The translations under genes and the position numbers were made by a program. Below, piece by piece: positions 11,344-56,184 of a stretch of DNA of 64,000 bases. Source of the stretch: Thermostichus lividus PCC 6715 (lineage in GTDB: Bacteria > Cyanobacteriota > Cyanobacteriia > Thermosynechococcales > Thermosynechococcaceae); the NCBI RefSeq assembly GCF_002754935.1, contig NZ_CP018092.1, positions 1,488,001 to 1,552,000 on the forward strand. Reading direction: 5' to 3'. The notes below the pieces were generated by a model that saw only the letters and a program-made list of their open reading frames with translations, searched no databases and was not told the origin of the DNA. Position 1 is the stretch's first letter. Every line of letters begins with the position of its first letter.

Positions 11344-11488
11344 TAGGTGTTGCTGACTGTGGCTATGAATTCCCTCATCCCCAACCCTTCTTCTTGGGGA
11401 GAAGGGAGCTAAGAGTCTTGTTCCCTCTCCTTTGGGAGAGGGCTAGGGTGAGGGCGGCAAAAGACTCAAACCCGAAAAGCAACGCCCC
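11344..11488 (+). repeat. MITE-like repeat, copy A
   Basis: About 145 bp shared with segments at 35686-37024 (split) and 56010-56184. The ends are inverted repeats of the form TAGGTGTTGCTGA on the left and CAACGCCC on the right. Internally there are two foldbacks: CCCAACCCTTCTTCTTGGGG and CCCTCTCCTTTGGGAGAGGG. There is no coding potential. Terminal inverted repeats, small size and intergenic position fit a MITE; the parent transposase is not in the window. Confidence 0.7.
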
Positions 11489-35668: not shown

Positions 35669-35759
35669 AGAGGCTTTCTCTCCCCAATGTTGCTGAGTGT
35701 GGCTATGAATTCCCTCATCCCCAACCCTTCTTCCTAAGGAGAAGCGATTATCTTAAAAG

Positions 35760-36743
35760 TCAAGCAAATGATGATGCTGGAACAGCCGATTGACTCCCAT
35801 CTGAGTTGGACGGCTGCCAGTCCGTACCATGGTTGAGCATGGCATTGAGAATTGTTAATAGCTTATGCATACAAGCCACTAACGCTACTTTGGTAGCCTT
35901 GCCCTTCGCTAATAAGCGGTGATAGAAGACGCGAATCACTGAATTATGGCGCACCGCCACCCAAGCTGCCATGTACAACAGTTGACGCACAGCAGCACGA
36001 CCACCAAAGATAGCGCGTTTGCCTTGCTTCTGCCCACTATCTCGGTTGAATGGGGCAACGCCCACCAGCGTACTGATTTTTCGAGTGGACAACTGTCCCA
36101 GGTCTGGCAACAGGGCTAACAAGGTAGCGGCGACGACCTTGCCCACCCCTGGAACCGTCATCAGCCGCGTCTGTTTTGCCTGCCAGGGCTGACATGGATG
36201 GATTTGGGTGTCGATCTGCTCGTCTAGTTGCTGAATGCGGTCTTTGCGCCATGCAATGTGAGCTGCTATATCTGCTTGGGCTGTTCCGCGTAAGCCTGAC
36301 AAGCGGTTTTGTTCAGCAGTCAGGAGGTCTACCAGTTGCCGCCTGCGGGTCACCAAGTCCTGAAGTTCTGCGTCCGCTTCGCTGGCCAATGAGCGAATCG
36401 GTGGTTTCATCGCTTCGCCAAACCAGGCTAAAATCGCGGCATCGACCGGATCGGTTTTAGCCAGTTGATTGGCAGCTTTGGCAACGTTTCGCGCTTGCCG
36501 AGCATTAATCACGACCACGGGATAGGCTAGCGTGGACAGCACCAACGCCACTGACCGCTCATAGCCGCCAGTGGATTCTAGAATCACCCGAGCGACCGCC
36601 TCAGGCGGACACAGGTGAGTCAGAAGTTCGCGAATCCCACTCGCGGTGTTGCTCACGCGAAAACTCTGCTTCTGGGGACGTAGATGTACATCTAGCCACC
36701 GCTTACACACATCAATGCCAATCCATTGTTCTTGATCCTGCAT
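35760..36743 (-). CDS. IS110-family DEDD transposase/recombinase
   Basis: The 327-residue protein has the N-terminal RuvC-like DEDD domain: WIGIDVCKRWLDVHL (first Asp), VILESTGGYERSVAL (Glu) and AKTDPVDAAILAWFG (two Asp). The C-terminal transposase_20 region has TVPGVGKVVAATLLALLPDL and the serine-bearing FNRDSGQKQGKRAIFGGR. IS110 recombinases use a bridge RNA from the non-coding end of the element to choose target and donor. Length is normal and no frameshift is seen, so the protein is probably functional. Confidence 0.93.
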   Translation of the reverse strand: MQDQEQWIGIDVCKRWLDVHLRPQKQSFRVSNTASGIRELLTHLCPPEAVARVILESTGGYERSVALVLSTLAYPVVVINARQARNVAKAANQLAKTDPVDAAILAWFGEAMKPPIRSLASEADAELQDLVTRRRQLVDLLTAEQNRLSGLRGTAQADIAAHIAWRKDRIQQLDEQIDTQIHPCQPWQAKQTRLMTVPGVGKVVAATLLALLPDLGQLSTRKISTLVGVAPFNRDSGQKQGKRAIFGGRAAVRQLLYMAAWVAVRHNSVIRVFYHRLLAKGKATKVALVACMHKLLTILNAMLNHGTDWQPSNSDGSQSAVPASSFA

Positions 36744-36921
36744 ATCACTTTTGCGCCTGTCTGGGGGTAAATCAGGTGTTTACTCAACCTTGCGTCATGC
36801 GGGTTCTACTGTCCCAACCGATGATTCGAGTTTGACCTGTTGCATCAGAGAGATGACCCTAGCTTCTCCATGATGTCTCGCATCTAAGGGGTGACGGTCT
36901 ATCTCTCTAGTTTTAAGATAC
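36744..36921 (-). ncRNA. candidate bridge RNA of the IS110 element
   Basis: This 178-nt non-coding stretch lies between the left end of the element and the transposase start, where IS110-group elements encode their bridge RNA. In the minus strand a stem CATCA/TGATG (complements of 36871-36875 and 36843-36847) encloses a loop containing GGAGAAG (complement of 36863-36869). That heptamer is complementary to CTTCTCC at the insertion site in the MITE on the same strand, as a target-binding loop should be. A donor loop is not identified with confidence. Structure and role are inferred. Confidence 0.55.
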
Positions 36922-37156
36922 AAGGGAGCTAAGAGTCTTGTTTCCTCTCCTTTGGGAAAGGGCTAGGGTGAAGGCGACAAAAGAGTCAAACCCGAAAGTC
37001 ATACTTCTATTCAGCAACGCCCTAGTGTTCTCCATGCATTCCCTGTTTTGGGTAAGATAGATTTGGCGTGCTGCCCTAGGGCATCGCGCTACCGCTGTTT
37101 GTTATCTGCAGCGCAAATGGGCAAACAAATCAATGCATCATTAGGGTAAACGAACT

Positions 37157-56009: not shown

Positions 56010-56184
56010 TATGGTTGCATCGGATTTGAGTCTTTTGCCGCCCTCACCCTAGCCCTCTCCCAGAGGAGAGGGAACAAGACTCTTAGCTCCCTTCTCCCCA
56101 AGGAGAAGGGTTGGGGATGAGGGTCTCCCTAGGGAGAAAGGTTGAGGATGAGGGGAATTCATGGCCACATTCAGCAACACCTTA
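56010..56184 (-). repeat. MITE-like repeat, copy C, with an internal duplication
   Basis: In minus orientation it reads TAAGGTGTTGCTGAATGTGG at the left and GGCGGCAAAAGACTCAAA at the right, matching copies A and B. An extra block of about 30 bp is inserted, so the CCTCATCC...CAACC motif occurs twice (diverged), making it longer than copy A. The exact outer edge near 56010 is uncertain. It lies just upstream of pilB. Confidence 0.7.

Follow-up and report, generated by a model that had tools for sequence, protein, structure and literature searches.

How does a mobile element come to lie inside one arm of another repeat's hairpin, and what directs it there? The window, a stretch of 64,000 nucleotides from the genome of Thermostichus lividus PCC 6715 (one contig, 2.66 Mb), holds an intact 1,178-bp IS110-group element (core excluded) on the minus strand, inserted into a MITE of about 30 copies, in one of the two arms of its central hairpin. 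We consider it very likely that this is an insertion sequence moving by bridge-RNA-guided recombination, the mechanism described by Durrant et al. 2024 (PMC11208160) and Hiraizumi et al. 2024 (PMC11208158), and at the level of sequence this reading is strongly supported. The mechanism is already known, and the element is a well-supported new example of it. Comparison with related elements establishes its ends, its core, its guides and their covariation, a conserved RNA structure and the two halves of a putative promoter. The element and its surroundings are as follows.

35745–36922, minus strand: IS110-group insertion sequence, delimited by comparing the interrupted MITE with about 30 uninterrupted copies and by the junctions of relatives
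36923–36924, minus strand: CT core at the left end, deduced from relatives
35743–35744, minus strand: CT core at the right end, deduced from relatives
36923–37021, minus strand: left part of the interrupted MITE, with terminal repeat GGCGTTGCTGAAT (31 matches in the host genome)
35687–35744, minus strand: right part of the interrupted MITE
36923–36930, minus strand: left target half, AGCTCC-CT, within the MITE
35738–35744, minus strand: right target half, CTTCTCC, within the MITE
35760–36743, minus strand: IS110 recombinase (transposase) gene, 327 aa (Pfam PF01548 and PF02371; NCBIfam NF033542)

By itself, the window copy is compatible with a shared core of CT or CTT. In many relatives the left end has CTTGTATC, but the right target has CTA, CTG or CTC, so that with a slash marking the junction they read ...CT/TGTATC on the left versus ...ATCG/CTA, CTG or CTC on the right. 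Because the left ends share CT/TGTATC while the right targets vary after CT, the core is CT, and the element therefore spans 35745–36922. Both ends could be read in 44 copies, and CT was common to the two in almost every one. The initial annotation had given the element as 35745–36921 with an AAG core; its start stands, its end lies one base too early, and a core of CTT or AAG is rejected in favor of CT. Apart from the insertion the MITE joint is intact, with no longer target duplication, and the non-coding ends measure 179 nt on the left and 15 nt on the right, as is characteristic of the IS110 group.

The transposase gene has no internal stop. Its product carries the DEDD_Tnp_IS110 (PF01548) and Transposase_20 (PF02371) domains and matches the NCBIfam model 'IS110 family RNA-guided transposase' (NF033542) with 221.8 bits (cutoff, 140). 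By alignment, the active-site residues D11, E56, D98, D101 and S236 are present, giving the DEDD (RuvC-like) domain and C-terminal catalytic-serine domain of the IS110 group; the residue numbers of IS621 hold for D11 only, and the other catalytic residues are numbered differently. Among solved structures, the nearest by sequence was the IS110-family recombinase of ISCro4 (9t56; 133 bits over residues 2–313), from a different host and distant as a protein, while IS621, likewise a DEDD and serine recombinase, was matched by phmmer with 120 bits (8wt6). These domain matches, together with MITE halves on both flanks, bear out the earlier view of an IS110 element within a MITE.

The flanking halves read GGCGTTGCTGAAT...AGCTCCCTT at the left end and CTTCTCC...AAGGGTTGGGG...CAGCAAC at the right end. 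About 30 other MITE copies retain an uninterrupted joint, which reads GCTCCCTTCTCC or a variant. The family is about 160 bp long and ends in GGYGTTGCTGAAT; the host genome has about 30 such loci (31 matches), including two others in the window at about 11398–11477 and 56020–56160. It has the properties of a MITE, being short, multi-copy and bounded by terminal inverted repeats, with 8-bp target duplications at several copies (e.g., L099, L104, L105, L106 and L115). No autonomous partner or long element with these terminal repeats was found in the host genome. Intact targets number 16 for the forward arm (GCTCCCTTCTCC) and 15 for the reverse arm (AACCCTTCTCC). Within the MITE, positions 36941–36975 on the plus strand gave a sub-threshold match to the Rfam family whalefall-1 (17 bits versus a gathering score of 37), most likely a chance product of the hairpin.

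The next question is whether the long left end encodes a guide RNA. Folded alone, the window RNA had a folding energy no better than that of shuffled sequences (z = −0.06), and because single-RNA folding gave no energy signal, we turned to covariation among relatives. The resulting features are listed below.

36768–36924, minus strand: bridge-RNA locus (covariance model R1, 127.7 bits, E = 1.3e-31, the window sequence being part of the training set); predicted transcript about 36908–36768
36896–36908, minus strand: outer stem P1 of the target-binding loop, 5' side AGAGAGATAGACC, by covariation across relatives
36847–36858, minus strand: outer stem P1, 3' side GGTCATCTCTCT, by covariation across relatives
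36872–36884, minus strand: inner hairpin GATG...CATC of the target-binding loop, by covariation
36887–36894, minus strand: left target guide TCACCCCT, by guide–target covariation across elements
36863–36869, minus strand: right target guide GGAGAAG, complementary at 7/7 positions to CTTCTCC at 35738–35744 (minus strand)
36819–36825, minus strand: left donor guide ATCATCG, a 6/7 match to the right end ATAATCG
36789–36793, minus strand: right donor guide GCAAG, which pairs with the left end CTTG
35758–35763, minus strand: −35-like TTGACT in the right end (TTGAC in 27/27 distinct elements)
36915–36920, minus strand: −10-like TATCTT in the left end (TATNTT in 25/27 distinct elements)

The main alignment (A1) comprised 31 relatives with a left end, and its structure was taken from RNAalifold and from a named structure; a 21-sequence alignment (A2) in which the inner hairpin was shifted was excluded, and A1 and A3 were used. 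Both showed the outer stem, the inner hairpin, a donor-loop stem and a donor hairpin, and an outer donor-loop stem was also present in most individual folds. Overall, 96.3% of cells were paired, with 90 both-side changes versus 27.8 in shuffles and 4–14 in slid controls. Pairing was conserved in the outer stem (AGAGAGAT.GACC/GGTCATCTCTCT), where both sides had changed in 7 of the 11 modelled P1 pairs, and in the GATG/CATC inner hairpin (94% of cells paired, both-side changes in 2/4 pairs). The left end would thus yield an RNA in which conserved stems enclose two internal loops, as in a bridge RNA. A different closing stem for the GGAGAAG loop, CATCA/TGATG, had been put forward in the initial annotation, and we rejected it as not conserved, TGATG being absent in L037, L039, L062 and L093. 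The covariance-model folding suggested there did recover the RNA in held-out relatives (for example L055, E = 3e-25; L087, 4e-23; L085, 7e-23; L059, 8e-21), where the matches begin at the element's core. Within the host genome R1 matched the five known places and nothing else, and across the class it matched in 34 of 194 genomes; an Rfam search with the bridge RNA returned no family. Some relatives (L042, L094, L055, L056, L062 and L010) carry stem-loop insertions of ~15–25 nt in the donor hairpin or loop, with the guides intact.

The initial annotation had drawn attention to GGAGAAG as complementary to CTTCTCC, and the complementarity is exact. The chance of this heptamer in the shuffled 178-nt end was 0.018, close to the one percent estimated earlier, so the match by itself is weak; it becomes strong evidence through comparison with relatives. 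We compared 27 distinct guide sets from elements whose transposases are 31–94% identical to that of the window, leaving out G304, L027, L088, L089 and L090, in which the model starts internally or at odds with the junction. As right guide we took the heptamer that precedes the closing stem and has AG as its last two letters, and we compared it with the genomic bases to the right of the element concerned. Over its non-core bases, it matched its own target at 4.52 of 5 positions on average versus 1.84 of 5 for the targets of other elements, a sum reached by none of 20,000 permutations; in held-out elements the matches were 5, 5, 5, 5, 5 and 4 of 5. Among elements with long right guides, the per-position match was 1.0, 1.0, 1.0, 0.88, 0.96, 0.88 and 0.96 and then fell to 0.12 at position 8, which makes the guide exactly seven nucleotides long. 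Nine of nine positions matched in L018, whose recombinase is 31% identical.

Insertion sites followed the guide letters. The second full-length copy in the host, the 94% relative L038 (G164), and L039, L062, L093 and L041 (71–76% identity, readable right end) all lie at CTTCTCC, so the earlier expectation that other copies share this site holds among close relatives. It does not hold among more distant ones, an outcome named beforehand as counting against the guide, but there the guide letters have changed to fit. The right-target heptamers included CTTCTCC, CTTCTGC, CTAAATC, CTTTTTG, CTTTTTT, CTGCACC, CTTCGCC, CTCACCA, CTGCCCC and CTTCGCA, all except CTTCTCC and CTTTTTT being those recorded for the distant relatives. 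The joint change of guides and insertion sites across the 27 guide sets upholds the bridge-RNA reading first proposed from the window alone.

The left guide behaves similarly, with 4.70 of 6 positions matching its own target versus 3.38 of 6 for others (0/20,000 permutations), and its letters are highly divergent in some elements (ATTAAGC, GATGGTC, ACAACGC). The first loop is complementary to the bottom strand of the left target and the top strand of the right target, as expected of a bridge RNA, with a weak left guide in the window copy itself: only 2 of the 6 non-core bases of its left half, AGCTCC, fit. The other MITE arm (CCAACC) fits this guide better than AGCTCC, and the left half is better in CTCCCCTTCTCC than in CTCCCTTCTCC.

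The second loop is complementary to the donor, that is, to right end, core and left end in that order, again as in a bridge RNA. The left donor guide matched the right end at 6.14 of 7 positions on average, and 6 of 20,000 permutations were as good (p about 3e-4); in L046 and L017, the right donor guide and the left end have changed together (CTGG/CCAG). A junction promoter is known for IS110 circles (PMC11208160). Judged by its motifs, a putative promoter would be rebuilt here over the circle junction, since TTGACT and TATCTT are spaced by 17 bp only when the ends are joined. TTGACT also overlaps the TGA stop codon of the transposase gene, so that the coding end and the junction promoter have bases in common.

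By analogy with IS621, which is our model for transcription, binding, chemistry and the circular intermediate, the element would move as follows. The excised circle would join the right end, the CT core and the left end, and the junction would form the promoter TTGACT – 17 bp – TATCTT, from which a bridge RNA of ~140 nt would be transcribed from the left end. In the first loop, the left guide would recognize TCACCC+CT on the bottom strand of the target and the right guide, GGAGAAG, would read the top strand (CT+TCTCC), while the second loop would recognize the circle junction ATAATCG-CT-TG. The recombinase would then exchange strands at CT. Insertions would gather at the hairpin foot of the abundant MITE, in either arm, because this foot is the commonest match to the right guide in the host. 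CCCTTCTCC occurs 60 times in the genome, about half of them inside the MITE by coordinate comparison, so MITE abundance together with the guide match may be enough to explain the insertions in it.

The host genome contains five insertions: the window copy, a second full-length copy, and fragments of three more (one in two pieces). All five have their left end at the MITE ...CCCTT joint, two in the forward arm and three in the reverse arm. The second full-length copy (L002, G000:C1:2495043-2496219) is 99% identical, has CTTCTCC at its right end and carries a stop at codon 107; this stop and the fragmentary state of the other copies are reasons for caution about current activity. On each side of L002 lies a left MITE half, the two being inverted relative to each other, so that the empty site would be a long, near-perfect palindrome; the copy could be a recombinant between a forward-arm and a reverse-arm insertion. 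Beyond the host, viral contigs contained no relatives and the genome-contig scan gave a single truncated one; plasmid matches were at most 54% identical and were excluded from the analysis, and the window RNA had no match in plasmids. A search of the orthologous locus in ten other genomes of the genus found no natural empty site, because where readable this locus has neither the MITE nor the IS (in the nine genomes with the flanking gene located, the MITE was undetected and the IS absent).

The flanks of L002 raise the question of whether the window copy was itself placed by recombination between MITEs or IS copies, with a guide–target match that is older and no guided insertion at this locus. 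This history, which can be compatible with the bridge-RNA explanation, is unlikely. In its favor, the outer ends of the interrupted window MITE lack a clear 8-bp duplication, the left target is a poor fit, and copy 2 shows inverted flanks. On the other hand, the window flanks restore the normal MITE order, a left and a right half with the correct joint, and both joints lie at the guided site even if flanks were swapped later.

A rival in which the palindromic MITE hairpin is selected by the recombinase or by DNA shape, with an RNA whose role is only accessory or regulatory, is very improbable. Wherever the site is readable, the CTTCTCC-guided elements of the subgroup do all have a perfect or near-perfect hairpin whose foot they occupy, and most CTAAATC-guided elements adjoin one, being inserted directly 5' of another hairpin of such repeats. 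However, L010, L044, L049 and L059 have no hairpin at the joint and yet show 7/7 right-guide matches, and the target follows the guide letters while the protein family is unchanged. Because relatives with other guides insert at hairpin-free sites, the hairpin is not required.

That the heptamer is a post-hoc chance match, in an IS without a guide RNA or using other bases, we regard as negligible: the heptamer was indeed chosen after looking and the folding energy is unremarkable, but seven aligned positions fit their own site in relatives with at least ten heptamers (0/20,000 permutations), held-out elements agree, and covariation across elements already refutes it.

Under the preferred bridge-RNA reading, the element resembles IS621 (PMC11208160, PMC11208158), with a long left end, a two-loop guide RNA in the same order, a CT core, a junction promoter and insertion in a repeated palindromic sequence. 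It differs in its right guide of 7 nt rather than 4, in a shorter and divergent RNA, and in its target, a cyanobacterial MITE hairpin instead of an enterobacterial REP. ISPpu9, ISPpu10, ISPa11 and ISRm19 (PMC1525189) are IS110 elements that likewise gather in dispersed palindromic repeats, which are REPs of Pseudomonas and Sinorhizobium; unlike these, the carrier here is a ~160-bp MITE with terminal repeats and 8-bp duplications in several copies. IS1111-group elements with a seekRNA (PMC11187229) also have RNA-guided DEDD transposases selecting a specific site, but their guide RNA lies in a long right end and they have subterminal inverted repeats, whereas in the window element the RNA is encoded on the left and the right end spans ~15 nt.

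Across about 27 cyanobacterial guide sets, down to 31% protein identity, these elements test the bridge-RNA rule independently in nature, and they suggest that an IS can accumulate in a MITE without special recognition of it, the MITE being the commonest carrier of the guide's target. They also offer an element that is compact and intact and whose guides, core, donor and targets are all defined, as well as a covariance model of an RNA without an Rfam family. The close relative L038 sits in a different MITE, with ends GGGAGCATGTCA and about 20 copies, and this G164 MITE (L141–L144) and the window MITE have in common only the CCCTTCTCC...GGAGAAGGG hairpin. Since the GGGAGCATGTCA-ended MITE carries the CCCTTCTCC hairpin too, hairpin modules seem to be common to unrelated MITE families. 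We tentatively suggest, with rather less than even confidence, that this cyanobacterial IS110 clade lives on hairpin modules, shifts position through its guide letters and trades guide styles. If so, insertion would be either at the foot of the hairpin, in CCCTTCTCC, or directly 5' of a hairpin, in CCCCT-AAATC; a long right guide would go with loose matching on the left, and a short one with strict matching there.

That some IS110 elements have longer right guides has been reported already (PMC11208160). Here, elements with CTAC-type right guides (L063–L067, L073–L077, L057 and L058) match the right target at 4–5 positions only and the left at almost 8/8, the opposite of the 7-nt right-guide elements, in which left mismatches are tolerated. 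This contrast is descriptive, as few CTAC lineages were sampled, and the apparent trade between the lengths of the two target guides is relevant to the way in which specificity is set by bridge recombinases.
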